Program-made: the position numbers and the translations under genes
Virus record (IMG/VR): IMGVR_UViG_3300045825_000423
Span: 1 to 27,479 of that record
DNA length: 27,479 nt
Strand: one strand, 5' to 3'
Origin: a virus
The notes under the pieces: model-generated
Database searches by the model: none
What the model saw: only the letters and a program-made list of their open reading frames with translations
What the model was told of the DNA's origin: nothing
Shown here: one piece after another, positions 3,548 to 25,512 of the stretch
Position numbering within the stretch: the stretch's first letter is position 1
Layout: the number at the start of each line of letters is the position of its first letter

Positions 3548-3584
3548 CTATTATAAGTTGTTAAAAATAGGCTAATTTTGTGTA
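3548..3584 (-). promoter_or_regulatory. Phage late promoter element, copy 1
   Basis: Leftward element: TACACAAAA at 3584-3576, 12 variable bases, then TTAACAACTTATAATAG at the fixed offset shared by all nine copies. It starts directly at the stop codon of the 85-aa membrane protein gene and lies about 20 bases before the 198-aa gene. It should drive the last group of tail genes. Confidence 0.8.
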
Positions 3585-3842
3585 TTATTTAGTATCTATG
3601 GAAGTTCCCGATTTCGTTTGAAACTTTCTACCAAAATACAGTCCACACGATGCTAAAAAAAACTCAAAACTGCCGGCGCTGTTAACTTTAGACGTTACCA
3701 GACTCGCTAAAACGGCTATAGAGCTAACTACAACTAGGGTAGCAGAAATACTACCACGTTGTGAAATTGGATCTTTTACGACTAAAATTGGGAATCCAAA
3801 TTCGTTACCCTTCTGAATTAATTCTTTTATTTTTTCAAACAT
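3585..3842 (-). CDS. Small membrane protein, possible holin (85 aa)
   Basis: A short leftward gene with an amphipathic charged N-terminus (MFEKIKELIQKGNEFG), then PILVVKDPISQRGSISATLV, and two hydrophobic stretches at roughly residues 33-50 and 55-70, followed by a hydrophilic basic tail. This layout would suit a small inner-membrane protein. Small two-helix proteins late in phage operons are often holins, so a lysis role is possible, but nothing in the sequence proves it, and the endolysin lies far away in the rightward block. It follows HNH-1 with an 11-base gap and is followed immediately by late promoter copy 1. Confidence 0.65.
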   Translation of the reverse strand: MFEKIKELIQKGNEFGFPILVVKDPISQRGSISATLVVVSSIAVLASLVTSKVNSAGSFEFFLASCGLYFGRKFQTKSGTSIDTK

Positions 3843-3853
3843 AATCTAAGCCT

Positions 3854-4555
3854 TTAATATTGTTCATTTTTAAGTAGAGTATATATTTTTTTACATTTTG
3901 CAATAAACTTATCATATGGAATATCATTTTTAATTCTATTACATTCCCAACAGCAAGATACTGAATTTTCTAAAATATAGCCTTTTTTAGGGTATTTCTT
4001 GTCTACTCCATTATATTTAATCTTAGAAAATTTACTTTTATTACTTGATTCTTTAGTAGGAATCTCCCCGCAATAATGACAATTACCTTGTATTAATAGT
4101 TCGAACTGATCTTTAGTTAATTCAAATTTAACTTTATTTTTCTTAGCGTTAGACTGATAAGAAGTGTATATTTTATTTAGTCCCGATTTTGGGGCTATTT
4201 TATGTCTAACTAACATTTCTTCCGTATAATAATCAGTGGGTTTTATATTAAATTTAGTAAATAGGTTTGTCATTTTTCCATAACTTATTCCTAAAATATC
4301 CGGTAGTTCTTTTAATAATTTACCCTGTTTAATTAATTCAATTGCTTTAGTGGTAAAATCTAAATTTAAATGAGGTGCTCTATGATCTTTAAGCTTTCCA
4401 TCTAATAACCTATATGTGCGTTTTTTTACCGAAAATATTGTAGTATTAAAATCTTTTGCAATTTGAGTAAAAGAGTCTAATTTATTATATTTCTCTAAAA
4501 GTTGCATGTCTTCTTCCGGTGACCAGTATTTTCGTGCCTTATGTTTAATATCTAT
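3854..4555 (-). CDS. HNH homing endonuclease HNH-1 with N-terminal Myb/SANT-like HTH; AUA start inferred
   Basis: A probable free-standing HNH homing endonuclease. The first ATG is at 4507, but the open frame continues upstream and encodes KARKYWSPEEDMQLLEKYNK, the start of a Myb/SANT-like helix-turn-helix that an ATG 4507 start would truncate. GGAG (4565-4562) sits 6 bases before an ATA codon at 4555-4553, the exact place a start codon is expected, so I annotate from there. A second helix-turn-helix-like region (LLKELPDILGISYGKMTNLF) follows. The C-terminal half has CHYCG, GVDKKYP, GY and CCWECNRIK, the paired-cysteine zinc-binding pattern of one HNH subfamily. Late promoter copy 2 precedes it. 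It is probably a mobile insertion between virion genes. Confidence 0.8.
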   Translation of the reverse strand: MDIKHKARKYWSPEEDMQLLEKYNKLDSFTQIAKDFNTTIFSVKKRTYRLLDGKLKDHRAPHLNLDFTTKAIELIKQGKLLKELPDILGISYGKMTNLFTKFNIKPTDYYTEEMLVRHKIAPKSGLNKIYTSYQSNAKKNKVKFELTKDQFELLIQGNCHYCGEIPTKESSNKSKFSKIKYNGVDKKYPKKGYILENSVSCCWECNRIKNDIPYDKFIAKCKKIYTLLKNEQY

Positions 4556-4566
4556 ATTTAACTCCT

Positions 4567-4603
4567 ATACTATAAGTTGTTAAATATTATGGATTTTTAT
4601 GTA
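4567..4603 (-). promoter_or_regulatory. Phage late promoter element, copy 2
   Basis: Leftward element with the variant box TACATAAAA at 4603-4595, then TTAACAACTTATAGTATAG at the shared spacing. It starts directly after the TAA stop of the 139-aa gene, and the GGAG ribosome-binding site of HNH-1 begins right after the TATAG. Confidence 0.8.
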
Positions 4604-5402: not shown

Positions 5403-8400
5403 TAGTAACCTCCAGATTTAATAATAGAGATATTTGCAGTTCCGTTTGTCCCTAAAGTTCCACCTGAAAACAATGTTGAAGCAGAAGATCTAATATCGAT
5501 GTAATCACCTTTAACTAACTTAACTGTTCCAGAACCAACACCATTTGTTGCATTTGAACAAATACCGATTGTTTTTAGTAAAGTTCCGTTTTTATAGGTA
5601 AGAATATTTGCTGAAGCATTTCCATTTCCTGCAAAACTTATTTGATAATACCCTGTACTCGGTGCCGTAAATTTCCAAGCGGTAGGCGAAGTTGTAACTG
5701 CTCCGTGAGTATCAAATTCCATACTGTCAAAGTTAATTGGAGTAGTTGTACTTGCTGTAAAGTTTGCACTTAACCAGTAACTCGCTGCTACTGTTTGTTG
5801 TGAAGGTATCGTTACAAGCGAAGGTGATTTTGAAGCGTTGAAAACGAAGTATCCTGTATTGTATACCGATGTTGCTAAATCTTGCCCTAGAAACCGTGTA
5901 GTGTTTGCAATAAATGCTGACCCGCCATCTAATGTTAAAATACCTGTTGTCTCGTTATAAAAAATCCGTGTTCCATTCTCTGTATTTGTGCTGTAAGCCG
6001 ACCAATCTATAGACATAGGTGTGGCTTTAGATACAGCAGCATAAGCATCAACCTGTTTTGACTTTAATCCTTTTCCAATAAAAACATCTACTCTTGTAGG
6101 AGAAGCGGCAGTTGAGTTAGCGGTGTATGCTCTAGAGAATAGCTGAATACCGTTTACATTCATACTTGAAATTGTTTGAGTTGGAGCAGAGGTCGCTATA
6201 ACCCAAGCAGAAGAAGTTGCTGCTATTGTATAAGTATTAAACGTCCCAATCGCATCCACAGCAGGATCGATAGCTGTACTTTTAAATACAAAAGACATTG
6301 TGTCTGAAGACACTTGCTGAGTAGGAGAAGCTGTAGCGTTGTTGTCTGCGGTAGCTAAGACCGTAATAGTTTGAGTACTTGTCGTGTTGAATCCGTTAGT
6401 AACTTTAAAAGTTTCCCCTGCATTTATTTGAAAGTTAGCAGAAACACTTGTGTTGTATCCAATTAATGCAAGTGAATTATTTGTGCCTACAGTTGTTGTG
6501 TTCTTTATAATTGTAGGTTGTACAGAGTTAGCTCCACTTGCCTGAAAAGCAGCAGTTATAGAAATGTTTGCAGCTTTTAAAGCCGTATAAATCCCTGTAG
6601 CAGAATCGTAAGAATATACCCCGTTATTTGTATTTGAAGTTAGTCCTCCTGTAATCGTAGCTACTCCAAAACTAGCTGTCTGTGATAGGAAAGAACTTTG
6701 AGTATCAGTAGTTTTCAAATTCACAAAACTCGTAACGTCTACTGAAGATAAATTCGGCTTCCCTACTTTTGAAATTGTGAATTGCGCCCCATTTGTTGTA
6801 GCACCTGTAGTGCTTCCGTCTGTATGAGGTCTAATAGTATCTCCAGTAACTAAATACCCCGTCCAACTTACTGAAGCTGTAAAGTTGGCTGCTGCTGTAG
6901 TATCTATCGCCAAAACCTCAGAAGTCGCACATGAGGCAATAGTTGTTGTGGGGGTTACTGTATTTTTTGTTAATCCTAAAAACCCCGTACTATTAAATTG
7001 ATCAGAGTAAGTTATTGTGTAAATACCTGAAGAGTTTACAGTAACACTAGCCCCCAATGTTGCAGAATCTGTATAAGTTACATCCGATCCTAAATTGTCT
7101 ACCGTATTTGTAAATCTTCTAATTTTTGTATTCGTTGACCCATAACCGTTTGCAGTATTTAATCTAACGCTACTATCCGACTGACTCCATTGTGGTAACA
7201 CGTTTGAAAAGTTAGCTGGGATTGAGGTTTCTGCCAGAGAGAGAACGAAGTTATTGAATGTATCAGAAGATGGAGGAGTAGAAGAATAGATTCTTATCTT
7301 ATCTCCAACTACAACATCAGTTGAGCCAGATACAAAAGCTCTAAATGCACCGGCACTTTGATTAAGTACTATTGACTCAGTAGAACTTGGTGCGCCTGTA
7401 AGAGATACTTGGTTTTTTGTAATACTTATATTTGTTGCAGAAGGAGTATTTAAGCTAGAATTTATATTTAACTTCCCAGCTTTCTTCATCGTTACAACAG
7501 TTCCATTAGCCGCTGTATTCACTACATCCCAAGCATCACCTTGAGTAATTGCTTGAGTGTCGAATTTTACAATTGCTGTATCTGTTGATCCTCTTGCAGA
7601 AGCTCCTTCAAAACGTAATTGGTGAGTTGGAATTGTTATTTTAGAATCTGTTGAAGGGTTGAGTTGTTTTAGGGAGCCTTGTTTTGAAACTCTTACTCTC
7701 ACTGGATTTAAGTTACCTGTACTTAAAGTTCCTTTTATTGTAATTAAATCTCCAGCATTTGCTAAAAACTGAGTCACTGACTCTATCCCAACATTGTTTG
7801 TCGCTGGAGTTGTAACGTAAGCGTCTCTTGTCACTCCGTTAACGTAAATATCCATCGCACTTAAAACTGCTCCATTGTTTGAAGCATTGGCTGTAACTGT
7901 AACTTGACCAGCAGTTAAAACGGTAATTACACCTGTAGATGTATTTACTGAAAAGTCAGATCCAATATTACTAGATACTGAATAACCTGTAGCTGTAACG
8001 ATACCTACTGCCGTAGCCCCTGTTAAATATAGTTCGCTATCACTCTGCTGAACTAATTGAGCTGTAGTAAGTGGGATTATTGTTGTGGTAGTTGTCGATG
8101 AAGTTAATCCTGTAATAGGCACGGAAGCAAAAAGATCAAATCCTGTTCCAGAAGAACCCAGATCATTTCCATTTCTTTTTGTTAACCCGTTAAATCCTCC
8201 ACCTTGTGAATCAAATGTCATATATGTAACAGATGGCTCAATTAATACACCCAATTGACCAGCGAATGAACCGGCTACCCCCATAACCCCAACTTTATGT
8301 ATGCTAGGTATTATTGGACTTGCAGCAGATGTTGCACTATTAGGAAGAGAAATTCTAGCTTCAGTTGCCGTAGTGGTTCCAAGTATCGCCTTTCCTCTAA

Positions 8401-10192
8401 TTTCATAATTAGCACCAACTTGTCTCCATTCAAATTCAACAGCAGTTGGAGTTCCAAATCCGGTAAATGCGGGAGTGTAACTTGCCCAATCGGTAGCATT
8501 AAAAGTTGTTTGAGAAATACTTGTGCTAGTTAAAGCTGTACTTGTTAATTGAACAACCACATCGTCAATATAAGATTCTGCATAAACTTCAACTACCGAA
8601 GAAATTGTCCAAGATAGGCTCAGACAGTTATTTGGTACATCAAAGCTGAATGTCTTTTTAGCATCTAAAGCTGAAATACGAATACCTGTAGAAACACCTG
8701 TAGCGTTTGCTGACATTGTTGCTGCAAGGGTAGCAGTATTTAATGCTGTAATTGTTGTTCCAACTGGAATAGCACTACCTGTAATTATTTGCCCTACCTG
8801 AAGCGTGTTAAAAGCTGATACAGTCATTCCCGTAAGTTGATTACTTGCATTAGCTGTTGTTGCTGTTAGCGCGGCAGAACCAGTAGCAATACTTTGTGAA
8901 GCTACTAAATTACTAGATGAAGTTTCATTATAAAATAATATGTTTAAATTTCCACTGGTAGCAGAGGATACCACATCTAAAATTACTGTGAGGTTTTTCC
9001 CTCGAAATTTTCTGTCTACTGCAATTACTTTCTTAAAAGATTTTATTGAAGTGGTATGTTGCAGGCGGAACGATTTTGTTCCGTGTAAAACTGGAGATGG
9101 AGATTCTATAATTTCTAAACCAGTTTGTGTATAATCTGTTAACGCGGAAAGATCTGCTTGGTCTGCAGAAAGAATATCTGCGTTACCAATTCCACCGCCT
9201 CCGCCTACTGCGGAAAGTGCTCCGGTTTTTACAACAAAAGTTTCTAAAGTATCTGTAGCAAAAACTAATTGCCCGTCTGCTGCAGTTAAAGCATAAGTCG
9301 TTAAATTAGATTTAGTATCTTTTTTCATATCTAAACGAGACGGTGTTACCAAACTCGCAGAAGTAATTGTCGGAGAAGTTCCAAATACATTAGCTCCAGA
9401 ACCTGTTTCGTCCGTAAGAGCTGTAGCAAGTTGAGCTGAGGTAAAACTACCCAAACTTGTAGCATTGCCAATTGAAGTTACGACACCTGTTAAATTAGCA
9501 TTAGTGGTTACCGTAGCTGCGTTACCGGAAATATTTGTTTGGTCACCAGTATTTGATCCAGTAGAAGTTCCTGAACCTGCTGGAGCACCTACCATAGCTG
9601 CTGTAATACCGCTTACTGTACCTGTAAAAGTTGGTGAAGCTATTGGTGCTTTTTCAGTATCTAATTCGTTTAAAGCTGCTTGTACTGTTGTAGCAGCAAT
9701 ACTGCCAGAGGGTACGTTCGAAATAGCAGAAGCTGCATGGGCACCGGTAGCAAGCCCTTTGTGTGTTTCAACATCTCCAGAAACTTCTTCTACTGCAGCC
9801 TGTACGTTTGTTGCCGCAATAGTTCCAGCCGGTGTAAAGGCAATTTCGTTTGCAGCATCTTTTGTTAAAAGTTGTGCGTCTACGTATGCTTTTGTGGCTT
9901 TTGCAGAAGGGATAGTATCGTCTAAAGCAGATACTGCGTTTAAGTCAGTATCAATTATTGCTGTTAACGCTGTCACGGGAACATTTGTAATTGTGTTACC
10001 TGCTCCAGAAATAGTTTTATTTGTAAGAGTTTGCGTTTGTGTATCTGTTACGATATTCCGCAAAGCAGCTTGAATATATAATTTTAAAGAATTTCCATTA
10101 CGGTAAATTACACCTTCTGAAGTGATATTATCTGCAGCTTGATCTTTAAAACCAACACCTGCATCAAAATATTTAAAAGTCTTGATTGCCAT
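5402..10192 (-). CDS. Giant tail fibre / receptor-binding protein (1596 aa)
   Basis: The largest gene in the window, starting at ATG 10192 with GGAG 7 bases upstream. The N-terminal 300 residues carry fibre modules seen widely in phages, including VQAAVEEVSGDVETHKG, VQAALNELDTEKAPIASPTF and FTGTVSGITAAMVG. The rest is a series of Ser/Thr/Asn-rich beta-sandwich-like modules, each with a sG-Y-x-I step and a GDxIxI step. Examples lie near residue 862 (LRFEGASARGSTDTAIVKF), residue 1015 (GYGSTNTKIRRFTN), residues 1157-1265, and the C-terminus (APSTGYYQISFAGNG). The repeated modules resemble C1q/TNF-like jelly rolls, which are common at fibre tips and suggest host-surface binding. I see no chaperone or autoprotease domain at the end. 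Confidence 0.85.
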   Translation of the reverse strand: MAIKTFKYFDAGVGFKDQAADNITSEGVIYRNGNSLKLYIQAALRNIVTDTQTQTLTNKTISGAGNTITNVPVTALTAIIDTDLNAVSALDDTIPSAKATKAYVDAQLLTKDAANEIAFTPAGTIAATNVQAAVEEVSGDVETHKGLATGAHAASAISNVPSGSIAATTVQAALNELDTEKAPIASPTFTGTVSGITAAMVGAPAGSGTSTGSNTGDQTNISGNAATVTTNANLTGVVTSIGNATSLGSFTSAQLATALTDETGSGANVFGTSPTITSASLVTPSRLDMKKDTKSNLTTYALTAADGQLVFATDTLETFVVKTGALSAVGGGGGIGNADILSADQADLSALTDYTQTGLEIIESPSPVLHGTKSFRLQHTTSIKSFKKVIAVDRKFRGKNLTVILDVVSSATSGNLNILFYNETSSSNLVASQSIATGSAALTATTANASNQLTGMTVSAFNTLQVGQIITGSAIPVGTTITALNTATLAATMSANATGVSTGIRISALDAKKTFSFDVPNNCLSLSWTISSVVEVYAESYIDDVVVQLTSTALTSTSISQTTFNATDWASYTPAFTGFGTPTAVEFEWRQVGANYEIRGKAILGTTTATEARISLPNSATSAASPIIPSIHKVGVMGVAGSFAGQLGVLIEPSVTYMTFDSQGGGFNGLTKRNGNDLGSSGTGFDLFASVPITGLTSSTTTTTIIPLTTAQLVQQSDSELYLTGATAVGIVTATGYSVSSNIGSDFSVNTSTGVITVLTAGQVTVTANASNNGAVLSAMDIYVNGVTRDAYVTTPATNNVGIESVTQFLANAGDLITIKGTLSTGNLNPVRVRVSKQGSLKQLNPSTDSKITIPTHQLRFEGASARGSTDTAIVKFDTQAITQGDAWDVVNTAANGTVVTMKKAGKLNINSSLNTPSATNISITKNQVSLTGAPSSTESIVLNQSAGAFRAFVSGSTDVVVGDKIRIYSSTPPSSDTFNNFVLSLAETSIPANFSNVLPQWSQSDSSVRLNTANGYGSTNTKIRRFTNTVDNLGSDVTYTDSATLGASVTVNSSGIYTITYSDQFNSTGFLGLTKNTVTPTTTIASCATSEVLAIDTTAAANFTASVSWTGYLVTGDTIRPHTDGSTTGATTNGAQFTISKVGKPNLSSVDVTSFVNLKTTDTQSSFLSQTASFGVATITGGLTSNTNNGVYSYDSATGIYTALKAANISITAAFQASGANSVQPTIIKNTTTVGTNNSLALIGYNTSVSANFQINAGETFKVTNGFNTTSTQTITVLATADNNATASPTQQVSSDTMSFVFKSTAIDPAVDAIGTFNTYTIAATSSAWVIATSAPTQTISSMNVNGIQLFSRAYTANSTAASPTRVDVFIGKGLKSKQVDAYAAVSKATPMSIDWSAYSTNTENGTRIFYNETTGILTLDGGSAFIANTTRFLGQDLATSVYNTGYFVFNASKSPSLVTIPSQQTVAASYWLSANFTASTTTPINFDSMEFDTHGAVTTSPTAWKFTAPSTGYYQISFAGNGNASANILTYKNGTLLKTIGICSNATNGVGSGTVKLVKGDYIDIRSSASTLFSGGTLGTNGTANISIIKSGGY

Positions 10193-10233
10193 TTACTGCT
10201 CCTATAGCATTTTGTTTTTTATTTAAAAACTAT

Positions 10234-10701
10234 TTATGAATTTAGTATACCGATGCCTCGAAATTTAATTAGCCCTACGTATCCAGTTCCCGAAATATTA
10301 GAGGATTTATATTGAACTTGTCCTGCGGGGGTAATATCTAAAATAATACCAGAGTCCCCGAAGCCTTCTAATTGTAGTATCCAATCTGTGTCTGTACGTA
10401 ATCCAGAAAGTACGAAAGATTCATATGATTTTGTAGTACCTGTAGTTCTGGAAACGCTTCCCTGAACTGAAAATGACCGTACGACTGCAGGATTAAATTT
10501 AAAATCTGGAATATCTGTAAAAGTTGAAATGTTGTTTTGAATTGTAGCGCCGGTTTCGAGAATATCGTTAGCGCCTTTTAGAGAGTTTAAAACTTTAGCA
10601 ACTTCGGAAAAATAATCAGTAAGGGAACTTCCCCACGGTGCAGGTTCACCCTCTACTGGAATATTAAAAGGGACGTTATTTACAGTTAAAATTATGGACA
10701 T
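10234..10701 (-). CDS. Hypothetical virion protein (155 aa)
   Basis: A leftward gene starting at ATG 10701 with GAGG upstream, directly below late promoter copy 3. The protein starts MSIILTVNNVPFNIPVEGE and contains DYFSEVAKVLNSLKGAN, then a beta-rich C-terminal half. This pattern, a short beta-strand opening followed by an amphipathic helix, resembles N-terminal regions of some phage tail-spike or fibre-adaptor proteins. A fibre-attachment role is therefore plausible, and it lies directly before the giant fibre with a 41-base gap. No catalytic residues are evident. Confidence 0.65.
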   Translation of the reverse strand: MSIILTVNNVPFNIPVEGEPAPWGSSLTDYFSEVAKVLNSLKGANDILETGATIQNNISTFTDIPDFKFNPAVVRSFSVQGSVSRTTGTTKSYESFVLSGLRTDTDWILQLEGFGDSGIILDITPAGQVQYKSSNISGTGYVGLIKFRGIGILNS

Positions 10702-10713
10702 GTTGAATCCTCG

Positions 10714-10750
10714 CTATATTAAGTTGTTAAATATAGGAGGATTTTGTGTA
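10714..10750 (-). promoter_or_regulatory. Phage late promoter element, copy 3
   Basis: Leftward element TACACAAAA (10750-10742), 12 variable bases, then TTAACAACTTAATATAG. The GAGG ribosome-binding site of the 155-aa gene follows within 2 bases. It lies shortly after the stop of HNH-2 and probably drives the 155-aa protein and the giant fibre group. Confidence 0.8.
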
Positions 10751-10756
10751 TTTTTG

Positions 10757-11326
10757 TTAGAGTTTACCCTTCTTTAAGTTGTCGATAGCCCATAGAGGTT
10801 GTAAATTAGTATAATGAGATAGTTTTACAAGATCTTCTTCTGTTTTGGCGGTGGAAATAGCTGTTTTGTGGTCTATGTGGATTTCCCCGGAATATACTTT
10901 ACCCCAAGTCATACCTTCGGTGAATAAGCTTTCGAAATATGACTTGAACTCTTCGGCGGTACATCCTAGGAATTCCATAGAAGATGTTTTCTTGAGGATA
11001 CCTTTATGGCGGAACATCATTCTAGTGCGGCTTCTATAGCGTTTTACCAATACGTAGAGGGGATCTGACTTCATTCTCTTATGATGACGTTCTAATTGAT
11101 ACTTATTAGCTCTTTCTACAAATTCAGGAGAATTTCTATACTCTTTTTTCTTTTGTAGAATCTTAGCTTTGTTTAAACTATAGTGTTCTTTATTTTGTTG
11201 CGAAGTTCTTCTGGGATGGGCAATTATAAAACATTCTTTACAATCATATCTATATTTATTAGATTCTTTTCTAAAATAAAAATCTTTTAAAGGCTTTTGA
11301 ATACTACAATGTGAACAGACTTGCAT
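10757..11326 (-). CDS. HNH homing endonuclease HNH-2 (189 aa)
   Basis: A probable free-standing HNH endonuclease. The N-terminus forms a zinc-ribbon-like unit with CSHC at residues 4-7 and CKEC near residue 30. The middle is strongly basic and helical (LERHHKRMKSDP). The C-terminus holds the HNH core IHIDHKTAIS followed by YTNLQPLWAIDNLKKGKL, matching the H-x-D-H ... N-L-Q-x-L-W-x-x-x-N-x-x-K pattern of phage HNH nucleases. ATG 11326 has GGAG 4 bases upstream, formed right at the end of late promoter copy 4. The gene sits between the major capsid gene and the next virion gene with a promoter copy on each side, which suggests a mobile cassette. Confidence 0.85.
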   Translation of the reverse strand: MQVCSHCSIQKPLKDFYFRKESNKYRYDCKECFIIAHPRRTSQQNKEHYSLNKAKILQKKKEYRNSPEFVERANKYQLERHHKRMKSDPLYVLVKRYRSRTRMMFRHKGILKKTSSMEFLGCTAEEFKSYFESLFTEGMTWGKVYSGEIHIDHKTAISTAKTEEDLVKLSHYTNLQPLWAIDNLKKGKL

Positions 11327-11339
11327 ATAACTCCATGCT

Positions 11340-11376
11340 ATACTATAAGTTGTTAATTGTAAAGGTTTTTAATGCA
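11340..11376 (-). promoter_or_regulatory. Phage late promoter element, copy 4
   Basis: Leftward element with the weakest first box (TGCATTAAA) but the invariant TTAACAACTTATAG at the same offset, followed by a second TATAG. It begins 2 bases after the U-tract of the capsid-gene terminator and leads into HNH-2. Confidence 0.7.
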
Positions 11377-11377
11377 T

Positions 11378-11405
11378 AAAAAAAGGGAGCCGAAGCTCCC
11401 TTTTT
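11378..11405 (-). terminator. Rho-independent terminator after the major capsid gene
   Basis: A perfect hairpin, GGGAGC-TTCG-GCTCCC on the minus strand (11400-11385), with a stable UUCG tetraloop, followed by seven T residues. The plus strand also has five T residues after the stem, so it could act in both directions. It ends the capsid transcript 30 bases after the stop codon and adjoins late promoter copy 4. Confidence 0.9.
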
Positions 11406-11434
11406 CTTAAGTTAGATTAGCTAACTAGTTGATT

Positions 11435-12682
11435 TTAGGGATGGGTTATTCCTGTAATAAGTAATGTTTTACCCGGAGCACGGCAAAAAAGAGCACTGTT
11501 CACGTAGCAACGAAGTTCGTAACCTGCGTTATTTGGAGCTTGAGTAAGGAAGTTGTCAGGAAGTCCCGGAAGCTGAAAAGTTATATCAGTAGAACCGATA
11601 CGTTTCATATCTTCAACTGCGAAGATATAAGCATAAGCTTCTTTACAGTAGATTGAAGATTGAACTTCAATTTTACCTGATTGACAAAAGAATTCAATTG
11701 CCATAGATCCGTTTTCTAATTTCTTAGTTGAGTAAGAAGAATCGAAACGTCTTAAAGCAGCTTGATCTTTCATTAAAGATGACCAAGTTTTTGGGTTAAC
11801 GATAGCGATTACATCTTTCTCTAAACCTTTTTCAGATGGACGAGCCATTGCTTTAATAAGTTTTTCGAAAGTTAATTCACCACCAGCATTAACAGTGTTA
11901 CCTTTCCATAATTCATACTGAGAAGCAGAAATTTCGAAAAGAGTTCCAGTATTAGCTAGAATTTCGTGTAGACCGATCATTTCTTTACCAGCAGCAGATC
12001 CACCAATTTGGTAAGCTCCAGCAGGAAGAATAACGTCAGTTGCTACAACACCAGCAGCCGCAGCGTCAGTTGTCATAGTGATTTTTTTAAGGTCAAAATC
12101 AGCTCCAGAAATTACGAAAGTTCCTCTCAATGTAGATTTTGCTGCATTGAAGATATCAACTTTCATATCTTTTGCTCCAGAGTAAATCCCCGGTGCCCAT
12201 TCAGCGTCAGCAATGGTTACTGCAGTAGTTACACAAGCAGAAACTTCACCGATGTTGTTACCACCGTACATTAACGATACTTCATGTTTTTTAGACATAG
12301 AATCTACCATTGCTTGTACAATGTATTTAGTAGCGTTTTCAAAAGATCTGTTATCTTTTGTATTTGCTGCTGCCAATAATTCGTAAGCGATTACTGATCT
12401 TAAAAGCATTTGAGAACCACGTACTCTAGCGTGTTTTACTACAGAAGAAATAGCGTCGTTAAGAGCGAATGCTCCGTCGTCACCGTCTGCATAAGTTACA
12501 CCGTGCTCTAATTGAAGAGCTAAAGGTTGAGAGAAAAAGTTACCCGGAGTTTTGTTTCTTTCCGCGAACTTGATGATACTTTGAAGTTTTGATTGAATAG
12601 GAATAAGTTCAATTACTGAATCCCCATACACTTCTTTTACTAAACCGTTTAATCGGGTTAGGTCTGCTGCTACTGCTGCCAT
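11435..12682 (-). CDS. Major capsid protein (415 aa)
   Basis: A probable major capsid protein of the tailed-phage type, which forms the icosahedral shell. The evidence is length, position downstream of scaffold and portal, and composition: an N-terminal helical region (IELIPIQSKLQSIIKFAE), then GNFFSQPLALQLEHGVTYAD, and a long alternating alpha/beta body ending with FCRAPGKTLLITGI. ATG 12682 follows an AAAGGA site. Its late promoter is copy 5, giving an untranslated leader of about 130 bases, much longer than for other late genes, and a strong terminator follows. Its own promoter and terminator fit a need for very high expression. The HK97 fold is assumed from what is known of tailed phages, not read directly. 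Confidence 0.85.
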   Translation of the reverse strand: MAAVAADLTRLNGLVKEVYGDSVIELIPIQSKLQSIIKFAERNKTPGNFFSQPLALQLEHGVTYADGDDGAFALNDAISSVVKHARVRGSQMLLRSVIAYELLAAANTKDNRSFENATKYIVQAMVDSMSKKHEVSLMYGGNNIGEVSACVTTAVTIADAEWAPGIYSGAKDMKVDIFNAAKSTLRGTFVISGADFDLKKITMTTDAAAAGVVATDVILPAGAYQIGGSAAGKEMIGLHEILANTGTLFEISASQYELWKGNTVNAGGELTFEKLIKAMARPSEKGLEKDVIAIVNPKTWSSLMKDQAALRRFDSSYSTKKLENGSMAIEFFCQSGKIEVQSSIYCKEAYAYIFAVEDMKRIGSTDITFQLPGLPDNFLTQAPNNAGYELRCYVNSALFCRAPGKTLLITGITHP

Positions 12683-12814
12683 TTGAAAATCCTTTGTTTA
12701 ATTTATAATAATAAGTTTAATTTAGTCTTGACTTTACGCTGTACTCGTAGTAGAATAGTATGTGGGCTTTTGCTTGCACTACGTTCTTTCTATTTTCCCC
12801 CGGAAATTCCAGAG
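12683..12814 (-). promoter_or_regulatory. Long 5' leader of the major capsid transcript
   Basis: About 130 untranslated bases lie between late promoter copy 5 and the capsid ATG. The 5' end can form a small hairpin (TTTCC-GGG-GGAAA on the minus strand, close to the transcript start), a feature that can protect mRNA from decay. The rest is AT-rich and ends in the AAAGGA ribosome-binding site. No ORF is visible. Confidence 0.45.
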
Positions 12815-12851
12815 CTACTATAAGTTGTTAAAATCTTACAAAATATGCGTA
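12815..12851 (-). promoter_or_regulatory. Phage late promoter element, copy 5 (capsid promoter)
   Basis: Leftward element with a degenerate first box (TACGCATAT) and the invariant TTAACAACTTATAGTAG at the shared spacing. It is the nearest promoter to the major capsid gene. The weaker first box is odd for what should be the most strongly expressed gene. Confidence 0.75.
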
Positions 12852-13166
12852 ATTTATGCACTATACTGCTAAATTGCCCGTAAAGCACCTTAAAATGATA
12901 CAAAATAGCTGTTTTATATCAAATAATACCACTATAATGTATATTTCGGCTATAATTTGCTATTTATTATACTTATATTAACTACAGTGTTAATTTGGGT
13001 AGAAATATTAGTGGAAAAAGGTAGTTTACATGTTTCTTACCGCCGAAACTACCAAAGGCTCTAGATTTTAACAGCATAGGTTATTTTATCCCGACCTCTC
13101 GCTATCTAGAATGTATCTCTTTTACGGAACCTCTTAGGGAATGCTCAGTTTTTGCATCCTTTCAAG
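12852..13166 (-). other. Non-coding region between HNH-3 and the capsid promoter, possible structured RNA
   Basis: About 315 bases with no convincing ORF. The half near HNH-3 is less AT-rich and has nested inverted repeats on the minus strand: TCTAGAT pairing with ATCTAGA across about 13106-13057, enclosing AGC/GCT and AGGT/ACCT pairs, and then GTAGTTT pairing with AAACTAC at 13021-13052. The half near the capsid promoter is very AT-rich, with several TATAAT-like hexamers. I could not fit it to a group I intron, tRNA or riboswitch. It may be the untranslated tail of the HNH-3 insertion. Confidence 0.4.
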
Positions 13167-13754
13167 TTATGGTAGCGTCCTACCAATCTGAATTAATTTA
13201 TTATTTTTACTACTATTCTCTACTTTAGTTAATATTTGTAAATTCCACGGTACATGTAGTCCACTTACTGTTTTACCCTGTAGAGGTATTATGTGATCGA
13301 CTTGATGTGATACTCCAGTATCTCTAGTGCGCTTAGCTGCTTCTATATAAAAGTCTTGTATTTTTTGTAGGTCATCTACAGTGAGCCATTTTGGAGTACA
13401 ATTTAACTTAGCAGTTCTACGTTTAGCATGATTATGATTCACTTTTCCGGGATTGGATTTTCTCCATTTTCTACAAGAGTTACTGACTTTTTCTGGGTTA
13501 TTCTTTAACCATTTTAATTTTAAAATAGATTGTGATTTAGAATTAATTATATTATAATCTTTAACTTTATCAGGATTGGATTTCTTCCACTGATTTGTAT
13601 AACCCCTAGTCTTATCTCTATTTGAATCTGCCCAAGCTTTAGCCTTTAGATTATGGCAAGATTTACAACTAGAATTTACACCGTCTTTAAAAGCAGTACT
13701 TTTGCCAAAAGATTCAATAGAAAGTGAATGCAGACATTTCTTACATATTCTCAT
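13167..13754 (-). CDS. HNH homing endonuclease HNH-3 (195 aa) with NP-K repeats
   Basis: A probable HNH homing endonuclease. The N-terminus has a zinc-ribbon pattern, CKKC at residues 4-7 and CKSC near residue 30. The middle contains several copies of a basic repeat (WKKSNPDKV, LKNNPEKV, WRKSNPGKV) that probably contact DNA. The HNH core is HQVDHIIPLQGKTVSGLHVP followed by WNLQILTKVENSSKNNKL. The only in-frame ATG at the N-terminus (13754-13752) lies inside late promoter copy 6, directly after TATAGT, and has no ribosome-binding site. The frame is intact. It lies between scaffold and the major capsid gene and looks like a late insertion. Confidence 0.85.
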   Translation of the reverse strand: MRICKKCLHSLSIESFGKSTAFKDGVNSSCKSCHNLKAKAWADSNRDKTRGYTNQWKKSNPDKVKDYNIINSKSQSILKLKWLKNNPEKVSNSCRKWRKSNPGKVNHNHAKRRTAKLNCTPKWLTVDDLQKIQDFYIEAAKRTRDTGVSHQVDHIIPLQGKTVSGLHVPWNLQILTKVENSSKNNKLIQIGRTLP

Positions 13755-13789
13755 ACTATAAGTTGTTAAATTTGAACAGTTTTTGTGTA
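13753..13789 (-). promoter_or_regulatory. Phage late promoter element, copy 6, overlapping the HNH-3 start codon
   Basis: Leftward element TACACAAAA (13789-13781), 12 variable bases, then TTAACAACTTATAGTATG. The final ATG is the start codon of HNH-3. It follows the scaffold terminator directly: the terminator U-tract runs into the first T of the promoter. Confidence 0.8.
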
Positions 13790-13790
13790 A

Positions 13791-13816
13791 AAAAGGAGCC
13801 GAAAAAGGCTCCTTTT
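13791..13816 (-). terminator. Rho-independent terminator after the scaffold gene
   Basis: A perfect 10-bp inverted repeat (AAAAGGAGCC and GGCTCCTTTT around a GAAAAA loop on the plus strand). On the minus strand the GC stem GGAGCC/GGCTCC is followed by a run of T. It lies about 40 bases beyond the scaffold stop and forms a terminator-promoter unit with late promoter copy 6. Confidence 0.9.
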
Positions 13817-13853: not shown

Positions 13854-14783
13854 CTACCAATCGCTATCAAGGCGACGGCGTTGAACTGGAGTTTCTTTTT
13901 TTGCAGGAGATTTTGAGCCAGTATCTACAATTTTAGTAGCGGCACTTATTTTACCTCTCGCAGCTTGTATGCGGGAATTTCTAATTGCTTTTATTCTATC
14001 GGGGGATACTAATTCCTCCACATCCTCATCCTTTAAATTACCAAGCATTTCTTTTACATCACGGCGGTACATTTTATTTACAATAGGAGCTAAGTCTTTC
14101 ATACTTACGTCCACGCCATTTTCAAAAGCAATGCTAGCAAGCTGTGCCATTTTATTAATAATGTATGGTGATTTTGGTAAGCTTCCAGATTCGATAGCTT
14201 CCATAATTTCACCTTGAATATGTGCTTCAGCGTCAGCTTCTAATTTTTGCCTTTCTGAATTTTCTCTAGCTGTTTTCTCTTCATGTATTTTCTTTTCATA
14301 TTCTTCAAGTTTTGCTCTAGCTTTTTCTAATTCAATTTGTTCTGGAGATTTGCTAGCTTCTTCAATTTTTTGAGCTAGTATTTTATCTGCCATATCCTCT
14401 AGTTTTAAACCTAAAGCTGGATTGCTTAGAATTTTCATTGGATCATTTTTTAGCATTTGTAAAAACTGGTCCATTTCCTGTTCCATCTGAGCAATTTGCT
14501 TTTGACTACTAGCCGATTTTGACATAGCTTCTTGTGCTGCTTTTTCCATTTGAAAAGCTTTTTGTAATCTAGCTTTGTCGTTAATGTTAATTTTTTCTTT
14601 AGTAACTTTACCATTTACTTTTAGTTCAAATTCTTCTAACTTCTCTTCTAATGCTTTTAACTCTGCCACCGCTGCGGGAGACTGTTCCCCGGGAACTACT
14701 GACTGTTCTGCATCAAATTCTGCTGTTTCTTCTGGACTAAAATCCGCTGACGAGTCGATTGACCCTTCGTTTTCACCACTCAT
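13854..14783 (-). CDS. Capsid scaffolding protein (309 aa)
   Basis: A probable internal scaffold guiding procapsid assembly. The protein is acidic at the N-terminus (SADFSPEETAEFDAEQ), long and helical with coiled-coil heptads through roughly residues 40-190 (for example LEKARAKLEEYEKKIHEEK), and ends with a basic segment (PAKKETPVQRRRLDSDW). A charged helical rod with a basic C-terminal end is the usual layout for phage scaffolds, whose basic tail binds the capsid shell. It is encoded upstream of the major capsid protein, the standard order. GGAG lies 5 bases before ATG 14783. Late promoter copy 7 is 60 bases upstream and a terminator follows. Confidence 0.85.
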   Translation of the reverse strand: MSGENEGSIDSSADFSPEETAEFDAEQSVVPGEQSPAAVAELKALEEKLEEFELKVNGKVTKEKININDKARLQKAFQMEKAAQEAMSKSASSQKQIAQMEQEMDQFLQMLKNDPMKILSNPALGLKLEDMADKILAQKIEEASKSPEQIELEKARAKLEEYEKKIHEEKTARENSERQKLEADAEAHIQGEIMEAIESGSLPKSPYIINKMAQLASIAFENGVDVSMKDLAPIVNKMYRRDVKEMLGNLKDEDVEELVSPDRIKAIRNSRIQAARGKISAATKIVDTGSKSPAKKETPVQRRRLDSDW

Positions 14784-14843: not shown

Positions 14844-14880
14844 ACACTTTAAGTTGTTAAAATTTAACAATATTTGTGTA
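14844..14880 (-). promoter_or_regulatory. Phage late promoter element, copy 7
   Basis: Leftward element TACACAAA (14880-14873), 13 variable bases, then TTAACAACTTAAAGTGTAG at the shared spacing. It drives the scaffold gene. It is back to back with a rightward sigma70 promoter whose -35 hexamer starts 4 bases away. Confidence 0.8.
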
Positions 14881-18757: not shown

Positions 18758-18794
18758 CTATAGTAAGTTGTTAAAAAATGAGTAAATTTGTGTA
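18758..18794 (-). promoter_or_regulatory. Phage late promoter element, copy 8 (portal promoter)
   Basis: Leftward element TACACAAA (18794-18787), 13 variable bases, then TTAACAACTTACTATAG. The stretch ACAACTTACTATAG matches the T7 promoter core ACGACTCACTATAG at 12 of 14 positions, the best match of the nine copies. It begins one base after the terminase stop codon. Confidence 0.85.
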
Positions 18795-21042: not shown

Positions 21043-21079
21043 CTACTATAAGTTGTTAAATTGTTGAAATATTTGTGTA
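21043..21079 (-). promoter_or_regulatory. Phage late promoter element, copy 9
   Basis: Leftward element TACACAAA (21079-21072), 13 variable bases, then TTAACAACTTATAGTAG. It begins 2 bases after the stop of the GNAT-like gene and probably starts transcription of the membrane protein and terminase genes. It is the rightmost copy in the window. Confidence 0.8.
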
Positions 21080-25023: not shown

Positions 25024-25512
25024 ATGGAGCCTATTTATATTAATGGAATTTGTACTCATTATTCTGTATTTCCGGATGGGACTATTTTAAATTTTAAAAC
25101 TCAACGATATTTAAAAGCTCACTTAGATAAGTATGGATATAAAAGAGTAATTTTACACATAGAAGGTAAGCAGAAAAATATGTTCGTACATCAATTAGTT
25201 GCAAATGCTTATTTAGAAAATCCTGATAACTTAAAAATAATTAATCATTTAGATAATAATAGAACTAATAATTATTTGTATAATTTAGAATGGTCAACTG
25301 CTAAGTTAAATAACGATCATAAAGTTAAACAAAATAGACACGTAAAAGGTGAACAAATACAAACTGCAAAATTAACAAAAACTGAAGTTTTAAGCATTAG
25401 GTATGAGAGTAAATCTTACGGAACTTCTAATAGAGGATTAGCTATTAAATATAATGTTGACATAAGAGTAATTTGGCGTATAATAAAAAGAGAAACTTGG
25501 AAACACATTTAG
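25024..25512 (+). CDS. HNH homing endonuclease HNH-4 (162 aa)
   Basis: A classic phage HNH_3-type homing endonuclease. The N-terminus (YSVFPDGTILNFKTQRYLKA) fits a NUMOD4-like region. The catalytic core is MFVHQLVANAYLENPDNLKI followed by INHLDNNRTNNYLYNLEWST, with H-N-H residues in the usual places, and the C-terminus (LTKTEVLSIRYESKSYGTSN and RGLAIKYNVDIRVIWRI) is a DNA-binding helix-turn-helix. It has no clear ribosome-binding site of its own and starts 2 bases after the lipoprotein stop, so translation may be coupled to it. Unlike the other three HNH genes it is in the rightward block and is not flanked by late promoter elements. Confidence 0.9.
   Translation: MEPIYINGICTHYSVFPDGTILNFKTQRYLKAHLDKYGYKRVILHIEGKQKNMFVHQLVANAYLENPDNLKIINHLDNNRTNNYLYNLEWSTAKLNNDHKVKQNRHVKGEQIQTAKLTKTEVLSIRYESKSYGTSNRGLAIKYNVDIRVIWRIIKRETWKHI

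Follow-up and report, generated by a model that had tools for sequence, protein, structure and literature searches.

HNH endonuclease genes and putative late-promoter copies in terminator-promoter gaps of the structural gene region of a tailed-phage family

HNH genes and promoter copies of the window

The DNA analysed here (the window) comprises positions 1-27,479 of IMG/VR record IMGVR_UViG_3300045825_000423, a 27.5-kb virus record, the - strand of which carries terminase, portal, scaffold, capsid and tail genes. The nearest relative found was an 84.5-kb contig (L009) with a major capsid protein (MCP) 95% identical to that of the window, and the nearest isolate found was a Silvanigrella phage, in which the capsid and terminase proteins were approximately 25% identical. 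The window and its relatives represent a previously undescribed family of tailed phages of about 80 kb with almost no isolated members. Three HNH genes and nine copies of a putative late promoter were located among the following features.

3554..3584 (core 3554-3564), - strand: promoter copy 1, resident, before a 198-aa gene; core plus TACACAAA-like element; counterpart at L009 18565
3585..3842, - strand: 85-aa gene, present in L009 too (87 aa, 59%)
3854..4507, - strand: HNH-1, 217 aa, endonuclease VII/PacI-like HNH; PHROG 1035, 7.9e-17; PacI 3ldy, E 0.011
4573..4603 (core 4573-4583), - strand: promoter copy 2, before HNH-1; core plus TACACAAA-like element; no L009 counterpart
10234..10701, - strand: conserved 155-aa late gene ('dn'), downstream of the capsid gene; 25-72% identity by alignment
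10720..10750 (core 10720-10730), - strand: promoter copy 3, resident, of the 155-aa gene; one copy here in 25/29 empty-site relatives
10757..11326, - strand: HNH-2, 189 aa; PHROG 1035, 6.5e-12
11346..11376 (core 11346-11356), - strand: promoter copy 4, before HNH-2; exact core; missing from the L009 counterpart
11378..11407, - strand: capsid gene hairpin terminator, abutting copy 4; -18.9 kcal/mol, z -5.1
11435..12682, - strand: MCP gene; PHROG 14242 major head protein, 1.8e-21; 95% identical in L009
12821..12851 (core 12821-12831), - strand: promoter copy 5, resident, of the MCP gene; orthologous copy in the same place in L009, L010, L011 and L012
13022..13127, - strand: 106-nt noncoding element downstream of HNH-3; L009 8757-8862, 101/106 (95%) identical, against a median of 75% over aligned windows
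13167..13754, - strand: HNH-3, 195 aa; PHROG 1035 endonuclease VII, 1.2e-23; PHROG 26577, 1.7e-22
13759..13789 (core 13759-13769), - strand: promoter copy 6, before HNH-3; exact core plus TACACAAA element
13791..13816, - strand: scaffold gene hairpin terminator, abutting copy 6; -15.4 kcal/mol, z -6.9
13854-14783, - strand: scaffold gene
14850..14880, - strand: promoter copy 7, resident, of the scaffold gene; matched by copies at the scaffold gene start in L009, L010 and L012
16672-18732, - strand: portal gene
18764..18794, - strand: promoter copy 8, resident, of the portal gene; core plus TACACAAA-like element
21049..21079, - strand: promoter copy 9, resident, at the start of the terminase operon; core plus TACACAAA-like element

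All three HNH proteins matched the endonuclease VII-like HNH proteins of PHROG 1035, their N-terminal parts being distinct and their function predicted. HNH-3 consisted of a CxxC zinc-finger-like N-terminal part and a C-terminal HNH part (VDH...N...NK), and residues of putative catalytic type were visible in both HNH-2 and HNH-3; a phmmer search of HNH-3 against PDB gave no meaningful match. Each of the three genes is an ORF of its own in an intergenic region between conserved genes, outside introns and inteins, and Rfam detected no group I intron in the window. A fourth HNH gene (window 25024-25512, + strand; HNH_3 with NUMOD4) was located in the module of the other strand, without a late-promoter copy.

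The promoter core, TTAACAACTTA, occurred in nine exact copies, all on the - strand of the window (0.09 expected by chance), and an exact-match scan of the whole window found none on the other strand. In eight of the nine copies, the exception being copy 4, TACACAAA-like bases were located at 11 nt upstream of TTTAACAACTTA (0.02 expected), and most copies ran on into a TATAGT-like stretch shortly before the gene start; in copy 6, the TATAGT overlaps the first ATG of the HNH-3 ORF. Six copies were in front of conserved virion genes and three in front of HNH genes, the motif being confined to the structural strand, where it precedes terminase, portal, scaffold and capsid genes. Variants of the core were seen in relatives, namely TTAACAACTACTTATAG in L010 and L012, and TTAACAAATATA in L095. 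Based on position, strand and recurrence, we infer that the TTAACAAC/TATAGT sites are the late promoters of this family, and late transcription would initiate at the TTAACAACTTATAG sites.

Regarding the polymerase, a Pfam search of ten relatives for PF00940 (single-subunit RNA polymerase) gave no match, as did its control, and RNA polymerase was absent by Pfam from eight large proteins of G001, which contained instead a DNA polymerase A, a DnaB-type helicase and an RNR-like protein. A scan with the 16-mer TTAACAACTTATAGTA, a query too short to inform, returned 59 stretches. In addition, the capsid gene leader (window 12690-12820, - strand) contained a recurring short motif, roughly GACGTAGTGGCAAGCATTAGCCC, which was found in the window, L009, L010, L011 and L012.

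The arrangement described in the initial annotation, with HNH-2 between copies 3 and 4, HNH-3 between copies 5 and 6, and HNH-1 together with the 85-aa gene between copies 1 and 2, was exact. Hairpin folds confirmed that copies 4 and 6 adjoin strong terminators, which are the ends of the upstream MCP and scaffold genes, and the HNH genes do lie between essential late genes without breaking them, in gaps that have a terminator/promoter on one side and a promoter on the other. However, because 9 of the 20 late genes in the window begin with a promoter copy, HNH genes and promoters are only weakly associated within the window alone (p = 0.07 for the chance of three out of three), and support for it comes from the relatives. 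This count, and the fact that the MCP and scaffold genes are bracketed likewise, would also fit a reading in which the HNH genes lack a mobility function and count as ordinary accessory genes of the late region, each with its own promoter like every late unit of this phage, the bracketing reflecting one promoter per small operon.

Capsid-adjacent gaps in related phages

The gap following the MCP gene was surveyed in about 68 related phages, giving 29 empty and 39 filled gaps, with the window counted among the filled. Exactly one core was present in 25 of the 29 empty gaps, immediately before the 155-aa gene, with 0 cores on the other strand; the remaining ones comprised three with no core by regex (the core of L023 overlaps the called start codon) and one with two, neither of them near the MCP end. 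A bracketing promoter pair was found in 0 of the 29. In the 39 filled gaps, a core was located near the 155-aa gene in 20, near the MCP end in 15 and on both sides in 7 (window, L010, L011, L013, L095, L114 and L156), these regex counts being blurred by wide divergence and degenerate cores, with many gaps showing one copy or none. The motif was found within 150 nt upstream in only 13 of the 40 endonuclease genes detected in relatives. The bracketed form is common, not the rule, and the expectation that an empty site has one promoter copy and a filled site two was thus borne out for the empty sites, whereas only the seven bracketed gaps conform to it among the filled.

Three unrelated endonuclease classes occupy this one gap: 1) HNH genes in the window, L009, L010, L011, L095, L112 and L152, 2) GIY-YIG genes in L013, L014 and L168, and 3) large phrog_3339 homing endonuclease genes in L120, L142, L147 and L157. 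It also contained endonuclease/Mom fusions in L106 (2972-4318) and L122 (11302-12756), which match Mom-like DNA modification families, and in L108, L109, L110, L116, L118 and L119 an unrelated gene pair without nuclease signature (about 280 aa, with a signal-like N-terminus, and 82-93 aa), accompanied by late-promoter cores. No HNH gene was found in L012 in the region from the portal gene to the 155-aa gene.

The presence of non-nuclease genes with promoters in the same gap (L108, L109, L116 and L118) again agrees with the HNH genes being ordinary late accessory genes. However, the HNH genes are sporadic, with empty alleles in relatives not only in the post-MCP gap (29 empty, 39 filled) but also in the scaffold-MCP gap of L010, L011 and L012; unrelated homing endonucleases replace them at the same gap, and their divergence far exceeds that of their flanks. 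On balance, we regard the absence of a mobility function as improbable.

Relatives were mostly 40-70% identical, so that exact insertion junctions were visible in only a few pairs. In L142 and L147, the filled members of a near-isogenic pair with the empty L145, the terminator is followed by the phrog_3339 endonuclease gene and then by an unchanged promoter, TTTAACAACTATAAAAGT, and a conserved sigma70-like promoter (TTGAAA-17-TACAAT) for this gene lies directly behind the terminator; in L145, terminator and promoter are arranged likewise but no gene separates them. In the scaffold-MCP gap, the number of promoter copies was one with no HNH gene (L010 and L011), two with one HNH gene (window) and three with two HNH genes (L009). 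The clearest insertion was seen when L009 was compared with the window. The second HNH gene of L009 ends directly before AAATTACGCA...TTTTAACAACTTA, the MCP promoter matching window copy 5, and this resident promoter keeps its own AAATTACGCA element intact downstream of the promoter-plus-HNH unit. A crossover inside the promoter was rejected for this gene, since it would have moved the AAATTACGCA element to the other copy.

By ORF comparison, HNH-1 was absent from L009, and it seems to have taken the place of a 62-aa ORF instead of being cleanly inserted. L009 also has an HNH gene (1694-2335) that is missing from the window; it lacks a promoter of its own and overlaps both neighbours, a 141-aa gene and the large terminase gene. 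It was also noticed that the MCP gene is split near codon 50-70 in many relatives (L011, L014, L112, L121, L132, L134, L136, L145 and L147). The insert in the L011 MCP gene (497-2671) contains a GIY-YIG-like ORF and a group I intron (RF00028, 1279-1529), and the split gene of L014 is located at 9036-11068.

Sequence exchange and the role of the promoter copies

HNH-2 and its L009 counterpart were 73.5% identical over the last 115 aa and only 32% over the first 48 aa; the two genes occupy the same gap, and only that of the window carries its own promoter. The last 90 aa of HNH-3 were 54-55% identical to all three HNH-B genes of L009, though the flanking genes were 84-95% identical. HNH-3 shares the promoter and the 3' 106-nt element with its L009 counterpart, yet its catalytic part resembled that gene (54%) no more than it did the other two (55%), and matches to this part at the DNA level were found in Vibrio and Enterobacteria phages. 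Divergence between a conserved promoter and a conserved 106-nt element fits allele replacement between conserved edges.

The 106-nt element was found nowhere beyond the window and L009. A known RNA family was rejected for it, as the Rfam search returned no family. With TCTAGAT/ATCTAGA in one phage and TCTAGGT/ACCTAGA in the other, a compensated stem is suggested, in an alignment of two members.

The promoter skeleton before the portal, scaffold, MCP and 155-aa genes is common to the window, L009, L010 and L012, and the copies outside this skeleton accompany endonuclease genes, except for copy 1, the terminase-operon copy and a few tail-region copies. The promoter on the upstream side of an insert goes with the endonuclease and can be exchanged. 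Copy 6 matched the L009 copy at 8137 (familywise p 0.0002), and copy 4 was 97% identical over 38 bp to the copy before a different HNH gene of L009 (9131-9168; familywise p 0.04). The L009 copies at 7063 and 8137, 1.07 kb apart, were identical over 33 nt (familywise p 0.07), and the sequence downstream of the copy at 7063 matched its window counterpart, as if one copy had been overwritten.

Such identities raise the question of whether the promoter core itself is the recombination site and the endonuclease target, as the initial annotation had proposed, a copy being left on each side in a late version of the shuffling by PeSL elements, which are reportedly known from T4-like phages through Arbiol (2010) and Comeau (2014). 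The single copy in empty gaps and the two in bracketed ones agree with this proposal, as do the 7063/8137 identity and the match of copy 4 to the promoter of a different HNH gene. It is opposed by the resident promoter elements, which remain with the downstream gene, and by the bracketing copies at HNH/GIY sites, which were no more alike than random copy pairs of the same genome. Inserts without a promoter, endonucleases with a sigma70-like promoter and non-nuclease genes in the same gap likewise argue against the promoter as the site. For the repeat units as recombination site, these dissimilar copies and the intact resident promoter stand beside two spacer identities that are suggestive. Promoter target-site duplication at the HNH/GIY sites was rejected as well, since the bracketing copies were at or below the median within-genome similarity, with L011 only slightly above, and copies that are not unusually alike are not a duplicated target. 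On balance the proposal is not supported, and we consider it highly unlikely.

A milder form of exchange may be envisaged, in which the terminator-promoter gaps are general landing pads and local exchange relies on homology between the promoter copies of about 33 nt, reshuffling promoters, endonuclease N-termini and catalytic halves as separate modules, with the 106-nt element closing the HNH-3 module; we offer this tentatively, as a possibility that is doubtful.

Free-standing endonucleases and comparison with known systems

Taken together, HNH-1, HNH-2 and HNH-3 are probably free-standing homing-type endonuclease genes that reside in terminator-promoter gaps and often bring along a late promoter that can be exchanged, their cutting and spread being judged from protein family and distribution. 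In such a gap, an essential late gene has ended with its terminator and the resident promoter of the following one is still to come, so that an insert breaks no gene and usually leaves the downstream promoter intact. Since it lies behind a terminator, the insert needs its own transcription, and each HNH gene of the window has acquired an extra late-promoter copy at the 5' side, in some cases joined to the start codon. Judging by the junctions, it is more likely that the unit was inserted as a whole, with the resident promoter left intact downstream of it. The proteins would cut the DNA of phages that do not have them, the probable targets being conserved genes of the flanks such as MCP, and would spread by double-strand-break repair with the flanking genes as homology.

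The survey of about 68 related phages shows which positions of an essential late operon tolerate selfish endonucleases, namely those behind a terminator and ahead of the next promoter, with a capsid-adjacent gap filled repeatedly by unrelated endonucleases. It also provides natural empty/filled pairs for the study of homing (L145 versus L142/L147, and L012 versus L010), and defines a probable late-promoter motif for this family, of which hardly any member has been isolated.

The resemblance to PeSL elements suggested in the initial annotation held for the layout, in that a terminator and a promoter adjoin in the gap (copies 4 and 6), as promoter and stem-loop do in PeSLs, within intergenic gaps that gain and lose small genes. 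It did not extend to the promoters, which are late here and located in the structural-gene region, whereas PeSLs have been described as early-promoter/stem-loop units implicated in gene shuffling (PMC4503421). The resemblance is therefore one of layout only.

T4 has 12 free-standing endonucleases between conserved genes, some promoter-less and others with middle or late promoters, and its segD adjoins major capsid gene 23 (PMC2988022). Similar to the seg and mob genes of T4, the family described here carries HNH or GIY-YIG genes in the spaces that separate conserved genes of the phage, some with their own promoter and some without, and the HNH genes are oriented as their neighbours. In T4, promoters displaced from downstream genes are often inside the endonuclease ORF, whereas here the resident promoter is usually outside and downstream of the insert; unlike in T4, the extra promoter belongs to the class that also serves the essential neighbours. 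By this analogy, the present genes would work like the free-standing endonucleases of T4 and resemble PeSLs in layout only. What is distinctive here is the late promoter class, the intact resident promoter and the reuse of one capsid-adjacent gap by several endonuclease classes.
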